Source of the DNA: Bacteroidales bacterium
GTDB taxonomy: Bacteria > Bacteroidota > Bacteroidia > Bacteroidales > P3
Direction of reading: 5' to 3'
DNA length: 10,731 bases
Assembly: GCA_017560705.1 (NCBI GenBank)
Contig: JAFZEK010000363.1
Coordinates: 1 to 10,731, forward strand
Under the pieces are notes generated by a model that saw only the letters and a program-made list of their open reading frames with translations, did not search any database and was not told the DNA's origin. Shown one piece after another: positions 3,135-10,731 of the stretch (the stretch's first letter is position 1; each line of letters begins with the position of its first letter). The translations under genes and the position numbers were made by a program.

Positions 3135-3761
3135 ATGAAGAGAGTATTTATTTTGGCAGCTACTGTTTTATTTGCTGCAACAGCTGTTATGGCACAGCCA
3201 AAAACTTCAGAAAAAGGATTGTGGAAGCAAGCTAAAAAGCAAGCTAAAACAATGGTAAAAGAAGGTTGGAAAGTAGATGGAAGCCAACCTATGGAAAATT
3301 GTTTGTACAATCACTTGGTTAAGCTAAGCGACCCCAATTATCAAGAAGTTGTGGCTACAGTATCGGGTAGTACTACTGTTAGAACAGTGAACCAAGGAAA
3401 ACAATGGGCTAGAAATATGGCAAACCAATCGTATGCCAAAGATGCTAGCACTGTTGTGAAAGGTAGAATTATGGGCGAATCGGGTGCCGGTATTGACGGT
3501 GCTCCTTCGGTGGATAACTTCTACGAAGCTTACGAAGCTTTGGTGTACAAGAGCATTCAAGGTGAATTGAAAATGAGTTTCGGTGTTTATCGCGAAACTA
3601 AAGAAGGAACTATTGAATACATTGGCTACTACACCGTAAACGAAGAAGAAGCTTCTAAGGCTCGTATAAAAGCTATGCAAAACGCCATGAAGGAATCGGA
3701 ATTTGCACGTAAACATGCCGAAGAAATTGGTAAATTTGTTCAACAAGGATTTGATCAGTAG
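3135..3761 (+). CDS. Exported protein of unknown function, Bacteroidales family, possibly LPP20-related
   Basis: The product is 208 residues with a clear signal peptide (MKRVFILAATVLFAATAVMAQ, cleavage after VMA). The mature part starts with a basic amphipathic segment (GLWKQAKKQAKTMVKEGWKV), has a central VSGSTTVRTVNQGKQWARNMA region, and ends in an Ala- and Glu-rich helix (ASKARIKAMQNAMKE...). I recall similar proteins as common hypotheticals in Bacteroidales, but no function. The alanine-spaced helices after a short strand vaguely resemble LPP20-type domains; this is weak inference. A GTG at 3129 is also in frame, but ATG at 3135 follows aggtgaaa and gives a normal signal peptide. It is the first gene after the promoter candidate and is followed by a terminator-like hairpin, so it may be made in excess over the genes behind it. 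A 12-bp perfect tandem duplication (3225-3248) encodes KQAKKQAK. Confidence 0.85.
   Translation: MKRVFILAATVLFAATAVMAQPKTSEKGLWKQAKKQAKTMVKEGWKVDGSQPMENCLYNHLVKLSDPNYQEVVATVSGSTTVRTVNQGKQWARNMANQSYAKDASTVVKGRIMGESGAGIDGAPSVDNFYEAYEALVYKSIQGELKMSFGVYRETKEGTIEYIGYYTVNEEEASKARIKAMQNAMKESEFARKHAEEIGKFVQQGFDQ
3225..3248 (+). repeat. 12-bp perfect tandem duplication inside the first cluster gene
   Basis: The unit aagcaagctaaa occurs twice head to tail and encodes KQAKKQAK in the basic helix just after the signal peptide. A similar 9-bp duplication (acgaagctt twice, 3523-3540) encodes YEAYEA in the same gene. These are likely replication-slippage products and small length variants between strains would be expected. 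Confidence 0.7.
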
Positions 3762-3779
3762 TAATAACTATTAGGGTGT

Positions 3780-3822
3780 GCTGCTAAAGCCTTGTAAAAA
3801 GGGTTTTAGCAGCATATTTTTT
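3780..3822 (+). terminator. Intrinsic terminator or attenuator between the first two cluster genes
   Basis: Arms 3780-3791 (gctgctaaagcc) and 3802-3813 (ggttttagcagc) pair over 12 bp with a single G-U pair and a 10-nt loop, followed by atatttttt. It lies 18 bp after the stop of the first gene and 16 bp before the start of the second. Because the next genes lie close behind and I see no convincing new promoter, it probably acts as a partial terminator that lowers expression of the rest, or it marks the end of a separate one-gene unit. Confidence 0.7.
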
Positions 3823-3837
3823 AAATGTAAGTTTGGT

Positions 3838-4629
3838 ATGAAACGCTTATTTGTATTTGCGATAATGGTGATGTCTTTAGCCTCATTGTCGGCTAAGGAA
3901 AAAATAGAAAAAGTGAAGGTTCGTGGTGAGTATACTTTACTTACTACTGCTGATGTTACTTTCAAGCAAGCTGCTGCTGAGGCATTGAAAGATGCTAAGC
4001 GTAAAGCGATAGAAAAAGTTTGTGGCGAGACGGTGAACGTGTGGGACAGAATGAGTACCTCCAATGTTGGGGAATCGTTTAATAGTTTGTCGCTTAATCA
4101 GATTAATGGAGAGCTAGTGGAATACACTGTCATAAAGGAATGGCGTGAAGATAGCAAGGTGCGCAGTGTGGAAGTTTTGTTCTATTGCGAAATAGAAGCT
4201 AAGGTAAAGAAAGGCTTGACTCCCGACCCTAATTTTACTGCAGACATTGAAGGTGTGAAAGGTATATACTTTGAAGGTGACAAGATAGAGTTCAAAGTGA
4301 CACCATATCGTGATGCTTATTTGAAGATATTTTGCATGGAAAATGAGCAGTTGGGTTATCGTTTGTACCCCAATGAGATTGATGGTACAGTACAAAAGCT
4401 AACTGCCAACAAGAAACATGGTATTTTGGAGTATTCCGATTTGGAATGTGCTAAAAGTACTACTCAGAAGGTGGAAGTGAATTATCTTGTTTTTGTATTT
4501 ACCAAAGAGGAGTATCCATTTTATAAGGATGTAAACTCGTGGCAGGAGATAGAAACATGGATGGCCAAGATTCCAAGCGACCAAAAGTACATATACTATG
4601 CTCCTATAGAAATTAGAGAGAAACAATAA
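3838..4629 (+). CDS. Exported FlgT-N/LPP20-like and DUF4384 domain protein
   Basis: The product has 263 residues with signal peptide MKRLFVFAIMVMSLASLSA. Residues about 22-125 look like the FlgT-N/LPP20 type of domain: a strand (VKVRGEYTL), then a helix with the typical A..A..DA.R.AIEKV.G pattern (44-63), and later strands (GELVEYTVIKEW, RSVEVLFYCEIEAKV). Residues about 130-225 match DUF4384: YFEGDKIEFKVTP, then DAYLKIFCMEN, YRLYPNE, and a final strand VEVNYLVFVFTKEEYPF. DUF4384 is known as a domain often fused to, or found next to, caspase-like peptidases, and the next gene is such a peptidase, so a shared pathway is likely. The start at ATG 3838 is chosen because upstream in-frame codons run through the terminator hairpin and the signal peptide begins here. 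No catalytic residues are recognised; a scaffold or sensor role is inference. Confidence 0.85.
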   Translation: MKRLFVFAIMVMSLASLSAKEKIEKVKVRGEYTLLTTADVTFKQAAAEALKDAKRKAIEKVCGETVNVWDRMSTSNVGESFNSLSLNQINGELVEYTVIKEWREDSKVRSVEVLFYCEIEAKVKKGLTPDPNFTADIEGVKGIYFEGDKIEFKVTPYRDAYLKIFCMENEQLGYRLYPNEIDGTVQKLTANKKHGILEYSDLECAKSTTQKVEVNYLVFVFTKEEYPFYKDVNSWQEIETWMAKIPSDQKYIYYAPIEIREKQ

Positions 4630-4663
4630 ATGAATATTTAGTAACTGTATAAAAATAACTATC

Positions 4664-5566
4664 ATGAAAAGATTAGTGATTTTGGCAGTGTGCTTTTCAG
4701 CACTTGTATGTGTAGCACAAAATAATGCCGTAACAAAGAAGAAGACCTTGGTTATAAACCAAGAAACACCAGAGTCTAGAGCCGCTAATGTGGATAGAGA
4801 TGTGCCTGTAACAGAAATATCTCAAGAAAAAACCTTTGCACTTATCATAGCCAACGAGAACTATGATCAAGTGGCTGACGTGGATTATGCTTTGCATGAT
4901 GGACGTAGTTTTAAGAACTACTGCGAAAAAACATTGGGGATACCTGCTAACCACATCTTGTATTCCGAAAATGCTACAGCAGGAAAAATTAAATCAGAGC
5001 TGAAAAAGTCGAAAGATATATTGGAAGCTTATAAAGGCGAAGCATCATTAATAGTGTATTATGCCGGTCATGGTGTACCTGATAAAAATCTTAATGGCTA
5101 TTTGTTGCCTACCGATTGTTCGGGTAGCGACCTATCGATGGCTGTGGCTTTGAACGATATGTACGAAGAGTTTTCCGAAGTGCCTGCTCAAAGCATTGTA
5201 ATGTTTTTGGATGCTTGTTTTAGTGGTTCTAAGCGTGGCGAAGGTATGATTCAAAATGCTCGTGCCGTAAAAGTAGTGGCAAAAGACAATAAACCTAAAG
5301 GTAAAGTTATTGTGTTTTCGGCTGCTCAAGGGGATGAAACTGCTCACCCTTACAAAGAACAACGCCATGGAATATTCACATACTACTTGCTTAAGAAGTT
5401 GAAAGACACTCAAGGCGAAGCAACATTGCAAGAGCTTGGCGAGTATGTACAAACTCAAGTGCGTCAAAATTCCGTAAATATAAGTGAAACTAAACATAGT
5501 CAAACACCCACAATGGTGGCATCGCCAAAATGGGGAGATGATTGGAAAGAATTAAAATTGAAATAG
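4664..5566 (+). CDS. Exported caspase-like cysteine protease (peptidase family C14)
   Basis: The product has 300 residues with a signal peptide (MKRLVILAVCFSALVCVAQ). The C14/p20-like domain spans about residues 55-290: strand one ALIIANENYDQV (59-70), HDGRSFKNY, catalytic His136 in IVYYAGHG, and catalytic Cys185 in MFLDACFSG. An acidic residue before the Cys (Asp183) is kept, as in orthocaspases, and a later strand reads VIVFSAAQGDETA followed by HGIFTYYLLKKL, the usual p10-like end. The family cleaves after basic (metacaspase/orthocaspase) or other residues; specificity cannot be told here. The signal peptide places it in the periplasm or beyond rather than the cytosol. It lies 34 bp after the DUF4384 gene and 6 bp before the PEGA gene, so an operon is likely. 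There is no N-terminal prodomain of note, only a ~35-residue charged linker. No truncation is visible. Confidence 0.93.
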   Translation: MKRLVILAVCFSALVCVAQNNAVTKKKTLVINQETPESRAANVDRDVPVTEISQEKTFALIIANENYDQVADVDYALHDGRSFKNYCEKTLGIPANHILYSENATAGKIKSELKKSKDILEAYKGEASLIVYYAGHGVPDKNLNGYLLPTDCSGSDLSMAVALNDMYEEFSEVPAQSIVMFLDACFSGSKRGEGMIQNARAVKVVAKDNKPKGKVIVFSAAQGDETAHPYKEQRHGIFTYYLLKKLKDTQGEATLQELGEYVQTQVRQNSVNISETKHSQTPTMVASPKWGDDWKELKLK

Positions 5567-5572
5567 AAAGAT

Positions 5573-7057
5573 ATGAAGAAATGTCTATTGTTCTGTGTCA
5601 TTGTTTTTGCTACATTCTGTGGTAAAACAGTGGCACAGAATGTTACTAATTTGGACTTTGCATTAAGAGATGGTAAAGTAGTTATAACTTACGCTTTGGA
5701 TTATCCAGCGGATATTAAAGCGTATTATTCTCTTGACGATGGTAATAGCTATAAAGAAATAACCAAGGCTACGGGCGATTTGGGTGCATTGGTAACGCCC
5801 TCGCCTATGAAACGTATAGACTGGGATGCCTTTGCCGAAGTTGAAAACTTAGAGTATGAATCGGATGTAGCGTTGGTTATTAAGGTGGAAGCTATTGCAA
5901 ATGCATATACCAAACAAGCTATGGAGGCGGCCAAGAAAATGGTAAAAGAAGAAAAAGCCGACCAATACCTTATAGTTCGTTGTGCTGACGATGGAGCAAT
6001 GTTGTATTTGGATTCTACCGGTACAGGATTGCCGTTTACTAAGGGGGTTATTAGGATACCAGTAGCTTCAGGTAATCATACCTATAAGATAGAAGCTCCT
6101 ATGTACGAAACTGAATCGGGGCAAATAGATGTGTTGGCTTATCAAAACAAGGAACTTGCTGTGAATTTGAAGCCTTTGTTTTCGGAAGTAACAGCTATTG
6201 CAGACCCTGAATATCTTATTTATGTAGATGGTGACTATATGGCAAAGGGACAGTGGAAAGGTCGTTTGTTGCAGGGTAAGCACATTTTGGAAGCTCGCAA
6301 GGGCGAGAAATATTTGTCTATGCCATATATGTATGAAGCTGTAAAAGGTACTACTCAAACTATAAATTTAAAGAATTCAGCACCTGCTGCTCTAATGATA
6401 GTAGAAAGTGAGGAAGCTGATGTGGCTATGTTCATTGATGGTGAAGATAAGGGTATTCAAACAAAAGTGGCTGATATTATCTCTGTAGGTAAGCATGATA
6501 TTAAACTGAAAAAGCATGGATTTGAAAATACGGATACTACGGTGATTCTAGAACATGGTAATGTTGCTAATGTGATATTAAAAATGCAGCCTGTAACCAA
6601 CAAGTTTTTCTTCTTGGCTAATATGGCTTACTCTATGTCGCCTCAAGCATCATACGGTATAACACTAGGAACTGTAAAATATTGGGGTTGGTATTTGAGT
6701 GCTACTACTAATCTGGACTTTAGTTCTATGGGTTATGAATTTGCAGAGCCAACAGAAGGATACTATACTGGCAAAACATCTACATCGCGTTTTGCTCTTA
6801 ATGTGGGTATAGTGCGTCGTTTGAACAAGATATTCTATCTTAAAGCCGGTGTAGGCTATGGAATAAGAAATCTTTCGTGGCAAAAGAGCGATGGTGATTG
6901 GGTGAATATTACTGCTAATTCTTTTAGTGGTTTGGAAGCCTCGGTAGGTATGCAAATGATGTTTGGTCACTTTGTTCTTTCGGCAGATGCAGTTGTGCCT
7001 ACAACAAAAATTGGTAAATATTGCGAAGCTCGAATTGGCGTTGGTTTTGCTTTTTAA
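5573..7057 (+). CDS. PEGA-repeat protein with putative C-terminal outer-membrane barrel
   Basis: The product has 494 residues with signal peptide MKKCLLFCVIVFATFCGKTVA. Residues about 23-108 form an all-beta domain common in Bacteroidales PEGA proteins (VVITYALDYPADIKAYYS, then MKRIDWDAF, then VALVIKVEA). Three PEGA-like units follow at about 132-200, 201-266 and 271-341, each with a short-hairpin pattern (MLYLDSTGTG, IYVDGDYMAKG, MFIDGEDKG) and a later GNHTYKIEA, GKHILEAR or GKHDIKLKK strand. Residues 344-494 alternate polar and aromatic or hydrophobic residues, contain turns rich in Gly and Asn, and end in GVGFAF; a final Phe is typical of outer-membrane barrels. The protein could thus anchor the system in the outer membrane, with the PEGA stalk binding partners or glycan; this is inference. 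It starts 6 bp after the caspase gene, with aaag as a weak ribosome site. Confidence 0.85.
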   Translation: MKKCLLFCVIVFATFCGKTVAQNVTNLDFALRDGKVVITYALDYPADIKAYYSLDDGNSYKEITKATGDLGALVTPSPMKRIDWDAFAEVENLEYESDVALVIKVEAIANAYTKQAMEAAKKMVKEEKADQYLIVRCADDGAMLYLDSTGTGLPFTKGVIRIPVASGNHTYKIEAPMYETESGQIDVLAYQNKELAVNLKPLFSEVTAIADPEYLIYVDGDYMAKGQWKGRLLQGKHILEARKGEKYLSMPYMYEAVKGTTQTINLKNSAPAALMIVESEEADVAMFIDGEDKGIQTKVADIISVGKHDIKLKKHGFENTDTTVILEHGNVANVILKMQPVTNKFFFLANMAYSMSPQASYGITLGTVKYWGWYLSATTNLDFSSMGYEFAEPTEGYYTGKTSTSRFALNVGIVRRLNKIFYLKAGVGYGIRNLSWQKSDGDWVNITANSFSGLEASVGMQMMFGHFVLSADAVVPTTKIGKYCEARIGVGFAF

Positions 7058-7086
7058 TTTGGTATGAATAGTATAATAGGATAAAT

Positions 7087-7770
7087 ATGATTATGAAATA
7101 TATAAAAAGTATATTAGTAATAGCTCTTTTAGCTTTCTGTGTGTCGTGTGAGAAAGATATGAGTGTAACACCTTCTCGCATATATACAATAGATGCTACC
7201 GATATTATAGGTACTAATGCTTTGGTAGGTGGCAACGTTATTGCTAATGGCAATTTGGAAATACGTAAATGTGGTATATGTTGGAACACTAAAGGAATGC
7301 CTACTGCGGGAGACTCTCATATAGAAGGCAGTCTTTCGGAAAACCATTTCTATGTAACTCTTAGTGGGTTGACAGTAAAAACAACTTACTATGTTCGTGC
7401 CTACGTGGTAGATAAGAATGGTACGTACTATGGCGATGAAAAGACATTTACCACTACCGATGAGTTATATCCCGATTTAAGAACAAAAGATGTGTCGGCT
7501 ATTACAAAAACTTCTGCTGTTGGCGGAGGTGTGGTAGTATTTGCCGGTAATCCAGAGGTGACAGAACGTGGTATTTGTTGGGCTACTACTCAAAATCCCT
7601 CAGTAGAAAATTCCAAAAAATCAAATGGAGCAGGCAAAGGTGATTACCTTTGTGATATAACAGGACTTACAAAAAATACTACTTACTATGTAAGAGCATA
7701 CGCTTATTGTGATAAGACTAAAAAGTATTTTTATGGTCCACAAAAGACATTTAAAACAAAGGCTAATTAG
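7087..7770 (+). CDS. Lipoprotein with two FN3-like (GICW) repeats
   Basis: The product has 227 residues with a hydrophobic signal ending in AFCVSC; Cys21 is the probable lipidation site, and the following E-K-D resembles the charged surface-export signal known for Bacteroidota lipoproteins, so surface exposure is likely but inferred. Two similar domains occupy about 31-123 and 129-225, each with a GICW motif (63-66 and 142-145), a Leu-containing turn, and TTYYVRAY (99-106 and 178-185), then YGxxKTFxT. This fibronectin-III-like unit is frequent in Bacteroidales surface lipoproteins and usually mediates binding. Another in-frame ATG lies at 7093; 7087 is kept because agga stands 5 bp before it. 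Neighbours on both sides are exported, with a 29-bp gap from the PEGA gene. Confidence 0.85.
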   Translation: MIMKYIKSILVIALLAFCVSCEKDMSVTPSRIYTIDATDIIGTNALVGGNVIANGNLEIRKCGICWNTKGMPTAGDSHIEGSLSENHFYVTLSGLTVKTTYYVRAYVVDKNGTYYGDEKTFTTTDELYPDLRTKDVSAITKTSAVGGGVVVFAGNPEVTERGICWATTQNPSVENSKKSNGAGKGDYLCDITGLTKNTTYYVRAYAYCDKTKKYFYGPQKTFKTKAN

Positions 7771-7812
7771 AAGTAACGACATATAAATTTTAGGAACGGA
7801 GGTTTGTTGATT

Positions 7813-9297
7813 ATGAATAGAATAAAAACGTTATTAGGAGTATTGGGTATTGCGTGTTGCGGTGCTGCAATGTCGCAAACCGATGATGATAAATTTCGTG
7901 CAGAGTTTGAGGCTTTCAAGCAGCAAGCTCAGAACGAGTTCAACACCTTTAAGCACGATGCTGAAAAGGAGTATGAAGAATTTCGTAGAAAAGCCAACGA
8001 AGAGTATGCCAATTTTATGGCTACTCCGTGGACGTTTTTTGAATCCAACGAAGCTGTGGAAGCTCCAAAAAGTCCCGAACCGCCCGTTCCTGAAATAAAG
8101 AAACCGGAAGAGCCAAAGCAAGAGGAGGTGGAATTGCCTTTTGAAGTGGTGATACCTGAACCGGAAAGATGTGCTATGCCTGAACCTCCGGTGCCTATAA
8201 AAGCACCTGTTGTTCCTGCTAAGAACATACTAAAATTCTCGTATTACAACACAGAATGTAGCCTGGGAATGGGTGATGATATTAAGTTTTCGCTTGACGA
8301 TGTTTCCGAGAAAGCAGTGTCCGATGCATGGAAAAAACTTTCTAATAAGCAGGTTGATGATTTTGTGGCTAACTGTTTGCAGCTTAGAAAAGATATGCAG
8401 CTTTGCGATTGGGGATACATAACAATGCTAGACACTATTGCAAACAACATCTTTGGTAAGAAGACCAACGAGGGCGTAGTGCTACAAATGTATGTGCTTA
8501 CACAATCGGGATATAATGTGCGTATAGCTAGAACTGATAATAAATTAGTGCTACTATTGCCTACTAAGGAAGTGCTTTACAACTACACTTACCTAATGAT
8601 AGATAATGAAAGATATTATGTAATAGACCAAACCGATGCCGATGGTTTTATGGTATTTAATCATGCCTTTCCAAAAGAAAAGATGTCTTCGTTGCAAATA
8701 AGAACTATTCCGAATTTGGTGAATGTGCGTACTAATGTCAAGAATTTTGAATCCGAAGCCTATCCCGATGTAAAGGTTGCGGTAGCGGTAAACAAGAATT
8801 TGGTGGATTTCTATAATTCTTATCCTTTGGGAGATTGGAACAATTATGTGTCGGCTTCGCTAAGTAAAGACGTAAAGGACGTGTTGTATCCTATGCTTAA
8901 AAAGCAGATAGAAGGAAAAACACAAGAAGAAGCCGCTAATATACTTATAAATTTTGTACAGACGGCTTTTGAATACAAGGTGGATGATGAGCAGTTTGGC
9001 TATGAACGTCCTTTGTTTGCCGACGAAGTGTTCTATTATCCATATAGCGACTGTGAGGATAGGTCTATACTTTTTGCGGTGTTGGTGAATGAGCTGATGG
9101 GTTTGGATGTGGTTCTGTTGCACTATCCTGGTCATCTGGCTACTGCAGTAAGATTTTCCAACGATATAGTAGGAGACTATATTAATCTAGATGGTGATAA
9201 ATACATCGTGTGCGACCCTACATATATAGGTGCAAGTATAGGAGAGGCTATGGAACGCTACAAAAATGAACAAGCAAAGGTGGTGAAAATAAAATAA
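7813..9297 (+). CDS. Exported transglutaminase-like protein with hendecad coiled coil and Pro-rich linker
   Basis: The product has 494 residues with signal peptide MNRIKTLLGVLGIACCGAAMSQ. Four 11-residue units (30-73) follow the pattern x-E-[FY]-x-x-F-[KR]-x-x-A-x (AEFEAFKQQAQ, NEFNTFKHDAE, KEYEEFRRKAN, EEYANFMATPW), predicting a long helix or coiled coil. A Pro/Glu-rich linker (about 82-137) leads to a large C-terminal part. There, residues 370-480 carry a transglutaminase-like triad: Cys414 in YSDCEDRSILFAVL, His441 in YPGHLATAV, and Asp468 in YIVCDPTY. The fold includes proteases, cross-linkers and deamidases, so the reaction is unknown; the triad is intact. The middle (140-360) is not recognised. 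In-frame TTG codons at 7804 and 7807 exist, but ATG 7813 follows an aacggagg ribosome site and starts a clean signal peptide. It sits 42 bp after the lipoprotein gene and 12 bp before the Sel1 gene, so co-transcription is likely. Confidence 0.87.
   Translation: MNRIKTLLGVLGIACCGAAMSQTDDDKFRAEFEAFKQQAQNEFNTFKHDAEKEYEEFRRKANEEYANFMATPWTFFESNEAVEAPKSPEPPVPEIKKPEEPKQEEVELPFEVVIPEPERCAMPEPPVPIKAPVVPAKNILKFSYYNTECSLGMGDDIKFSLDDVSEKAVSDAWKKLSNKQVDDFVANCLQLRKDMQLCDWGYITMLDTIANNIFGKKTNEGVVLQMYVLTQSGYNVRIARTDNKLVLLLPTKEVLYNYTYLMIDNERYYVIDQTDADGFMVFNHAFPKEKMSSLQIRTIPNLVNVRTNVKNFESEAYPDVKVAVAVNKNLVDFYNSYPLGDWNNYVSASLSKDVKDVLYPMLKKQIEGKTQEEAANILINFVQTAFEYKVDDEQFGYERPLFADEVFYYPYSDCEDRSILFAVLVNELMGLDVVLLHYPGHLATAVRFSNDIVGDYINLDGDKYIVCDPTYIGASIGEAMERYKNEQAKVVKIK
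7900..8031 (+). repeat. Four 33-bp coding units encoding hendecads
   Basis: Four consecutive 33-bp units encode 11-residue blocks in the N-terminus of the transglutaminase-like protein. The DNA of the units has diverged widely while the E-[FY]-x-x-F-[KR]-x-x-A pattern is kept, so selection acts on the helix surface rather than recent copying. The last unit keeps the EY..F start but ends in TPW, closing the coil. Confidence 0.75.
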
Positions 9298-9309
9298 AGT
9301 GGAAAAGAG

Positions 9310-10464
9310 ATGAAAAAGATATTGATAATGTTGCTTTGTTTGCCCATATCTTTTGTGGCTTATTCGCAGAATGATTGTACTCATTTTGATACCATAGGAC
9401 AGTATGATGATGCGTTTGCGTGTTTCTTGTCCGATACTTTGAATCCTCATAAGCAATATAAAATAGGAGAGTACTACTACGAAGGCAAGGTGGTGAAGAA
9501 AGATTATTCTAAAGCAGTAGAGTGGTTTAAGAAATCGGCGTTGGGCAATGATTCCGATGGACAAAATAATTTAGGCTACTGCTACCGTAGGGGTAAAGGT
9601 GTGGAGCAAGACGATAAAATGGCTGTACATTATTTTACTTTAGCGGCAGAAAACAATAATAGTTTTGCACAGTACAATCTAGGATGGTGCTACGAAAATG
9701 CAAAAGGAGTGACACAAGATTTGAGCCAAGCTGCTTATTGGTTTGAGAAAGCTGCTACCCTTGGTGATGTTACAGCCCAGCTGTATATAGGTAATTACTA
9801 TTTCACCGGCTTGGGTGTGGAGCAGAATTTAGAGAAAGCATTGTACTGGATGGAGAAAGCTGCAGAGCAGGGCGATCCTACTGCACAATATAAACTGGCT
9901 TCTATCTACGAAGAACAAAATGATAGTGAGAAAGCCGATTACTGGTATTCCTACTCCGTAGAAAATGAAATAAGAGCCACTCAAGCAGATATGCTGGAGA
10001 ATGTAGCCGGCATGGAAGCAAAAGAAGAACGAAACTACACTGCCGATGTGGAGCTATATAAGAAAGCTGCTTCGCTAGGACACCACAAAGCACAATGCAA
10101 CCTGGCACTATGCTACTACCGAGGTCTTGGAACAAACAAGGATTATGCCAAGGCTGCAGAGCTATTTGCACAAGCAGCCGAAAAGAACAATACCACTGCT
10201 CAATACATGCTTAGCGTGTGTTATCAAATGGGTACCGGAGTGGAAAAAGATATGAAGCAAGTAGTGTTTTGGAGCCAAAAGGCAGCAGAAGGCGGAAATG
10301 TAACAGCTATGTACAACCTTGCCAACTGCTACTACTATGGCCGCGGAACCGAAAAAGACTACAACAAAGCCCTTGAATGGTACAAAAAAGCTGCCGGCAA
10401 AGGACACGAAAAAGCTAAAATAGGAATAGATAATGCAACAAAGAAAATACAGGAAGGAAGATAG
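9310..10464 (+). CDS. Exported Sel1-repeat (SLR) protein
   Basis: The product has 384 residues with signal peptide MKKILIMLLCLPISFVAYSQ. About eight Sel1-like units of ~36 residues follow, for example at 82-117, 118-153, 154-189, 294-329 and 330-365, each of the form AQ.NLG.CY..G.GV..D...A..WF.KAA..G. The solenoid is regular at both ends but broken at about 190-258, where one unit is short (EEQNDSEKADYWYSYSVENE) and is followed by a charged non-repeat stretch with an ETADVELYKKAA-like half unit. Sel1 repeats are protein-binding adaptors, often in signalling or secretion. In an operon with caspase-like, PEGA and DUF4384 proteins it is likely a periplasmic scaffold. It starts 12 bp after the transglutaminase-like gene behind ggaaaagag. 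Confidence 0.92.
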   Translation: MKKILIMLLCLPISFVAYSQNDCTHFDTIGQYDDAFACFLSDTLNPHKQYKIGEYYYEGKVVKKDYSKAVEWFKKSALGNDSDGQNNLGYCYRRGKGVEQDDKMAVHYFTLAAENNNSFAQYNLGWCYENAKGVTQDLSQAAYWFEKAATLGDVTAQLYIGNYYFTGLGVEQNLEKALYWMEKAAEQGDPTAQYKLASIYEEQNDSEKADYWYSYSVENEIRATQADMLENVAGMEAKEERNYTADVELYKKAASLGHHKAQCNLALCYYRGLGTNKDYAKAAELFAQAAEKNNTTAQYMLSVCYQMGTGVEKDMKQVVFWSQKAAEGGNVTAMYNLANCYYYGRGTEKDYNKALEWYKKAAGKGHEKAKIGIDNATKKIQEGR

Positions 10465-10466
10465 TT

Positions 10467-10731
10467 ATGAAACACTTTAATATGAAAACCGGAATAAGAA
10501 AGATTACAGCATTGGCAATGATGATGCTGTGTGTGTGTCAGGTATGGGCATTTGATTTTAGTGCATTAAGCCCAAGCGGACATAGGTTATATTACACCAT
10601 AGTGTCGGATGTGGCACCGCGTACGGTAAAGGTGGTAGCACCAGCCGATGATAGGTATTATTATGGTGTCACGTGGGATGGATTTACAAAACCTACCGGC
10701 AATGTGGTGGTACCCGATACTGTTACTTACG
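10467..10731 (+). CDS. BspA-like leucine-rich-repeat surface protein, N-terminal part (cut by window)
   Basis: The reading frame starts at ATG 10467, two bases after the Sel1 gene's stop, behind an aggaaggaag ribosome site, and stays open for 88 codons to the window edge. It has a long basic and hydrophobic signal (MKHFNMKTGIRKITALAMMM...VWA) and then FDFSALSPSGHRLYYTIVSD, WDGFTKPTGNVVVPDTVTY. This is the characteristic N-terminal segment of Bacteroidales BspA-type proteins, which continue into LRR_5 repeats. These are usually surface proteins that bind host or bacterial ligands. The repeats themselves lie outside the window, so the family call rests on this header. The tight spacing suggests it belongs to the same operon. 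An inner ATG at 10482 is possible but less likely. Confidence 0.8.
   Translation, partial: MKHFNMKTGIRKITALAMMMLCVCQVWAFDFSALSPSGHRLYYTIVSDVAPRTVKVVAPADDRYYYGVTWDGFTKPTGNVVVPDTVTY

Follow-up and report, generated by a model that had tools for sequence, protein, structure and literature searches.

We analysed a 10,731-bp stretch of Bacteroidales DNA, hereafter the window, which is one whole contig (JAFZEK010000363.1) of a 1.78-Mb assembly in 363 contigs that is 75% complete (GCA_017560705.1). The window carries eight consecutive plus-strand genes, g1 to g8 (Table 1), among which g3 encodes an exported caspase-like protease and g6 an exported enzyme of predicted transglutaminase-like fold. We found that g1, g2, and the caspase gene are linked in related genomes more than chance would allow, and that g2 is the most consistent partner of the caspase. 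The locus is a mosaic, with g1-g2-caspase as its core and g6 as a separable part. We tentatively suggest that it could constitute a modular exported proteolysis system of Bacteroidales that processes surface proteins.

Linkage was examined with a g2 profile built from copies lying beside caspases or g6, so that the search leans to that subfamily; despite this bias, the adjacency of newly found g2 matches was a free outcome. A search of 150 relatives with this profile yielded 28 matches, spread over 23 genomes; the window's own genome and two of its close relatives are among those counted. A caspase from the matches listed lay within 10 kb of g2 in 22 of these 28, compared with 0.6-0.9 expected for even placement in 2- or 3-Mb genomes, and on this ground chance neighbourhood of g2 and the caspase was rejected. 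A g1 homologue was near g2 in 16 of the 28 and a g6 homologue in 6. Caspases were also near 6 of 38 g6 matches (the stronger 38 of the 62 listed) versus 0.4-0.6 expected on the same assumptions. Among the 127 caspase entries in the matches listed, with pieces of one gene entered once, 20 of the 34 that scored at least 150 bits against the window's caspase were near g2, as were 5 of the 16 scoring 100-150 bits and 1 of the 77 scoring below 100 bits.

The association recurred among 60 further g2 loci (55 of the 66 new rows from within the order and 5 of the 7 from outside), on contigs of which some end inside the examined neighbourhood. A caspase was present in 34 of them (30 of 55 inside the order, 4 of 5 outside) and on the same strand in 33; g1 was found in 21 of the 60 loci and g6 in 17. 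When g2 scored about 120 bits or more, 24 of 38 loci contained a caspase, and 4 of the 14 without one had g6. The g2-caspase linkage spans 26 families of the order. Gene order, on the other hand, varied: caspase-g2 occurred 10 times, g1-g2-caspase 5 times, transglutaminase-caspase-g2 4 times, and g2-caspase 3 times, and g2 stood alone on its own strand in 22 of the 60 loci. The initial annotation had taken loss of gene order in relatives as one result that would reduce the genes to mere neighbours. The order was indeed not strictly kept, but linkage was well above chance, and the caspase keeps its partners nearby.

To place g6, species genomes were scanned for its relatives; at least 584 were confirmed, and the best 80 loci were retained together with flanks of up to 10 kb, their genes being called by the simple open reading frame (ORF) rule that we used for all relatives. 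In these best 80 of at least 584 loci, which contain duplicates (for example L093/L162, L096/L186, L097/L180, L098/L203, and L102/L193) so that the counts are not all independent, the protein families that we label C4 and C5 were each present in 39, FN3-type proteins in 41, PEGA proteins in 21, g1 in 18, family C13 in 15, giant leucine-rich repeat (LRR) proteins in 11, the caspase in 5, and g2 in 4. A g1- or C4-type gene was found in 57 of the 80. The caspase accompanied g2 in 3 of 4 loci and was absent from all 39 loci with C5 and all 15 with C13. This partner pattern makes the caspase version one of at least three versions of a cluster of exported g1/C4-type and g6-type proteins. The named relatives of g6 point to Bacteroidales as the host order of the window. 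L162 (JAMPAI010000003.1), a g6 locus of Bacteroidales type, comes from a record titled Ruminococcus flavefaciens, which has probably been mislabelled.

The sister genome G002, which is 98% complete, carries g2-g3-g4-g5-g8 on one contig and C4-C13-g6-g7-PEGA on another; g1 was not found in it. Initially, the eight genes had been described as a single cluster centred on the caspase and the transglutaminase-like enzyme. This description was not supported as it stood, given that g6-g7 lie apart in G002 and that few of the 80 g6 loci hold a caspase. A fixed eight-gene operon was likewise rejected on the varying order and the separable g6-g7 pair.

The g3 protein contains a caspase (C14) domain that scored 74.5 bits with PF00656, over the curated Pfam cut-off of 21.4. 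His136 and Cys185, which had been assigned as catalytic from the sequence alone, proved nearly invariant across 23 aligned caspases, and of the 68 homologous domains read across all loci, 66 keep the His-Cys pair. Judged from these residues, the g3 enzyme looks catalytically intact. The only match of the caspase profile was MALT1, and it was weak (best E 6e-5). One of the two broken dyads is in genome G008 (locus L090, 12132-14063), where a caspase copy with both His and Cys replaced lies directly before an intact copy, and may be its pseudo-enzyme partner.

Reports of exported caspases in bacteria go back at least to 2012 (PMC3501461). The initial remark that bacterial caspases are mostly discussed as cytosolic effectors is only partly right, as the passages of that 2012 survey on metacaspases note N-terminal helices or signal peptides and possible cell-surface roles. 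They count 104 metacaspases (15%) with transmembrane helices, some of which are perhaps signal peptides, and place 237 of 508 in predicted operons (PMC3501461). The surveyed metacaspases with signal peptides resemble the present case in being exported C14 proteins, in their repeat domains (WD40, TPR, Sel1), and in being often in operons; the same passages make no mention of transglutaminase, PEGA, or DUF partners, nor of a partnership with g1-g2 (PMC3501461).

No settled Pfam family was found for g1, whose match to PepSY_2 was under the cut-off. Its predicted model (mean predicted local distance difference test score, pLDDT, 86) had Tip-alpha (7.0) and Lpp20 (6.2) of Helicobacter and the Tob domains (6.9) as the nearest solved folds, all with modest scores. 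The LPP20 Pfam model gave no match among 13 g1 members scanned at E up to 0.1. With a profile, 523 relatives of g1 were recovered at an E-value of 1e-5 or better; among the 120 matches listed no Pfam domain was seen, and the few that are named read 'hypothetical protein'. A relation was found between g1 and the C4 proteins, which stand first in many g6 clusters (hhalign 96.5%, E 9e-10). C13, encoded second in another type of g6 cluster, has the N-terminal part of g2 in common with it (84.9%, E 6e-6), and matches LPP20 under the cut-off. The g2 copy of the window scored 26.7 bits with DUF4384, just under the cut-off of 27; the domain is present in 12 of 15 aligned g2 members, with FlgT_N in one, and there is a weak match to LipL46. 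Profile alignment of g2 with C5 covered only 15 columns, which amounts to no real relation, and alignment with g1 covered only the signal-peptide region.

The g6 protein scored 13.4 bits with Transglut_core, under the cut-off of 23. At E up to 0.1 no LapG-type Pfam family was matched, the only hits being ARMH5 and Transglut_core, both under cut-off, and a sequence search of the PDB with the g6 profile gave nothing at E up to 1. The transglutaminase-like reading was thus weak at the sequence level, but the AlphaFold model (mean pLDDT 89) and its alignments support the fold. The protein consists of a long N-terminal helix, a proline-rich spacer, and a catalytic part with Cys414, His441, and Asp468. 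These three residues, named in the initial annotation, are invariant in 23 aligned g6 homologues. In the larger set of 142 rows, which are not all independent owing to the duplicate loci, 11 are fragments that do not reach the triad, and 130 of the other 131 show Cys-His-Asp, with one Cys-His-Glu. The g6 enzyme therefore looks catalytically intact as far as its residues tell.

LapG is a periplasmic protease that releases adhesins, among them LapA. The predicted g6 fold is nearest to LapG, by a modest margin, and the model places the Cys-His-Asp triad within a transglutaminase-like fold, as in the LapG/BTLCP enzymes. Export is a further likeness, and in several loci a large surface protein is encoded beside the g6 homologue, as in the Lap system. 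The differences are that no Pfam-level membership was found for g6, that its neighbours include a caspase and small envelope proteins, that its long N-terminal helix and spacer are presumably absent from LapG, and that the window genome has type IX secretion genes, whereas the Lap system uses type I secretion.

With regard to the remaining genes, the PEGA, fn3, and Sel1 assignments made from the sequence alone exceeded their Pfam cut-offs, while DUF4384, the outer-membrane barrel, and Transglut_core fell below. The g4 protein scored 46 bits with PEGA (cut-off 20.8) and 19.2 bits with OMP_b-brl (cut-off 28.7), so that the barrel-type anchor proposed earlier rests on a weak match; its C-terminus is probably an outer-membrane barrel. 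The g5 protein scored 26.6 bits with fn3 (cut-off 25) and probably carries a lipoprotein signal. The g7 protein matched Sel1 in seven stretches (257.6 bits, cut-off 30.7), and its homologue adjoins the g6 homologue in G002 too.

For g8, the 88 residues present gave no Pfam match, and the BspA-like character attributed to it is not visible there. It appeared in the 1695-aa orthologue of sister genome G002 (82% identity over 78 residues), which combines BspA-type LRRs and InlB-type repeats with a type IX secretion tail (Por_Secre_tail, 43.1 bits against a cut-off of 27); the copy in the window stops short of its C-terminus. The g8 protein is probably a type IX secretion substrate. The window genome contains SprA (SprA_N, E 1.9e-161) and 29 type IX tails over the cut-off. 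LRR-cluster proteins lie directly before g6 homologues in loci L076, L098, L100, and L101; a small tail profile found the tail in those of L076 and L101, and Pfam found LRRs but no tail in that of L100. In the g2 loci, tails were found in 8 of 75, five of which had been used to build the tail profile, so no excess is shown.

The ORFs and export signals of all eight genes were seen as initially described, with signal peptides called by eye or by a crude hydrophobicity rule (those of g1 to g8 by eye) and some gene starts set at in-frame ATG codons within the listed ORFs. The small gaps noted after the second gene were measured as 34, 6, 29, 42, 12, and 2 bp, against 76 bp between g1 and g2. This wider gap holds a hairpin of -29 kcal/mol (z -5.0), and none of 200 shuffles was as good. 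A different hairpin (z -3.0) occupies the same place in the sister genome G001. The g1-g2 hairpin was not listed by the consensus terminator scan. The g1 gene may be a separate unit, or transcription from g2 onward may be attenuated. Scans for sigma-70 promoters and terminators gave hits at chance level, and a Bacteroidetes-type promoter pattern was nowhere matched in full, its half-sites being fewer than expected by chance. One promoter-like half-site of that pattern, TANNTTTG, lies at 3828-3835 of the window, a few bases upstream of the g2 start codon. The half-site TANNTTTG also lies a few bases upstream of the g2 start in G001 (L085, about 1093-1100); half-sites are not commoner than chance.

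Table 1. Positions and assignments of the genes and the stem-loop in the window
Feature	Position	Strand	Assignment
g1	3135..3761	+	208-aa exported protein of an unnamed family; model LPP20/Tip-alpha-like at modest scores
Stem-loop g1/g2	3773..3820	+	21-bp stem, U-rich 3' side; possible terminator or attenuator
g2	3838..4629	+	Exported; DUF4384 in C-terminal half, weakly FlgT_N/LipL46-like N-terminal half
g3	4664..5566	+	Exported caspase-like protease (C14), H136 and C185 (PF00656)
g4	5573..7057	+	Exported; PEGA domains, probable C-terminal outer-membrane barrel (Pfam)
g5	7087..7770	+	FN3-type protein, probable lipoprotein signal (fn3; lipobox by eye)
g6	7813..9297	+	Exported transglutaminase-fold enzyme, nearest LapG; C414/H441/D468 (predicted model, alignments)
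g7	9310..10464	+	Exported Sel1-repeat protein (Pfam)
g8	10467..10731	+	N-terminus of a large exported protein; gene cut by contig end

Upstream of these genes, the minus strand carries at 168-2029 two genes that match HEC-01B (E 1.2e-16) and HEC-01A (E 1.2e-72), which together make up a candidate defence pair. Between this pair and g1, an interspersed repeat of about 140-170 bp occurs twice, at 2204-2370 and 2670-2840. The repeat has 39 matches in the window genome (27 of 204 candidates scored), 31-43 in each of five other genomes of the genus that were searched, and one weak match across 25 other genomes outside the genus. It looks like a genus-specific mobile or REP-like element.

Starting from the composition, the linkage, the intact catalytic residues, and the predicted folds, we infer the rest of the proposed scheme, namely placement in the envelope beyond export, substrate, trigger, and contacts between the parts. 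The g1 protein (LPP20-like by its model) and g2 (DUF4384) would form an envelope-linked base that holds the exported caspase g3. To this base, lineage-specific modules would have been added: PEGA/barrel g4, FN3 g5, LapG-like g6 with Sel1 g7, and the giant LRR protein g8. As adaptors or sensors, g4, g5, and g7 would sense a surface or envelope cue, upon which g3, together with g6 where present, would cut or release large surface proteins in analogy to LapG and LapA. In this lineage g8 would be the likeliest substrate.

Our confidence in such a proteolysis system is lowered by the lead of LapG over other thiol enzymes in the fold comparison of g6, which lies within about 1 Z unit. The spread of g2 is patchy: it was found in 73 of 393 genomes of the order and in 8 of 296 in a phylum-wide draw that included the window's own, and three genomes of the same genus (G003-G005) gave no g2 match. 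The patchy spread fits the main rival, a surface or periplasmic conflict system in which g1 and g2 are the constant parts and the exported caspase is an effector, lethal to the cell or to a neighbour, that a receptor module sets off. Swapped modules fit it as well, including partners or fusions with WD40-type, TPR, WG, and CARDB domains. Seven g2 loci (L066 4053-6167, L243 11410-13494, and five others) share an exported protein of about 695 residues; both copies that were scanned have matches to propeller families of WD40 type. The g2-caspase cluster of two genomes belonging to one genus contains a SIR2-like gene (L086 11637-14106 and L090 9450-12114; SIR2_2 E 2.6e-13, PADLOC SIR2 E 3.7e-7), whose neighbour has a weak P-loop match. 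The candidate defence pair upstream in the window points the same way, as do the surface or fratricidal roles suggested for such caspases in the 2012 survey's metacaspase passages (PMC3501461). Against it, PADLOC gave no match for g1, g2, or g4-g6, and for g3 matched the caspase domain only, and linkage over many families would be deeper than expected for fast-moving defence islands. On balance we regard a conflict system as unlikely.

Among known conflict systems, the two-gene EACC1-caspase membrane system described in PMC7159879 comes closest. It too has a constant small partner gene beside the caspase and variable modules, but here the caspase is exported and the partner is an exported DUF4384 protein instead of the single-helix EACC1. 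The constant gene of EACC1-type conflict caspases was not found here: g2, the gene 5' of the caspase, matches DUF4384, and no EACC1 family was listed for g1 or g2. The EACC1-type caspase model NF047832 gave g3 80.7 bits against a cut-off of 140. Membership in this system was rejected on the caspase score and the missing EACC1 partner family.

Quite improbable, in our judgement, is an envelope assembly or quality-control set, in which the small envelope proteins, together with the proteases, would serve the maturation or surveillance of outer-membrane, type IX, or capsule parts in general, with no dedicated substrate. The FlgT_N- and LPP20-type matches belong to envelope proteins, PEGA and barrel proteins recur, and HvyA, a relative of LapG, is reported to control encapsulation (PMC4241560); the patchy distribution argues against general housekeeping. 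That the locus is only a short g1-g3 core next to unrelated exported genes is the least probable of all, since the varying order, the separation of g6-g7 from g2-g5 in G002, and the hairpin between g1 and g2 are set against a g2-caspase linkage more than 20 times expectation and the 6 of 38 g6 matches near a caspase, although it may still be true for g4, g5, and g7.

The proteolysis system may, more broadly, stand for an undescribed class of modular envelope systems, a proposal that we make with equal reserve. In this class a g1/C4-type protein with g2, C5, or C13 would be the base, the enzymes (caspase, LapG-like) and the sensor or adhesin modules would be swapped, and caspase proteolysis would serve a regulated surface function, not a cytosolic death switch. 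No description of this gene set was found in the titles and abstracts searched, where subscription journals are thinly covered; the earlier statement that no system of this composition is described holds for that literature, with the EACC1-caspase system similar in logic. With a caspase partner spanning 26 families, a LapG-like enzyme in part of the clusters, and a candidate surface substrate, the role of exported caspases would become open to deletion and surface proteomics. Bacteroidales dominates animal guts, and the proposed system, if true, would connect proteolysis of the caspase type with adhesion and with remodelling of the cell surface in this order.

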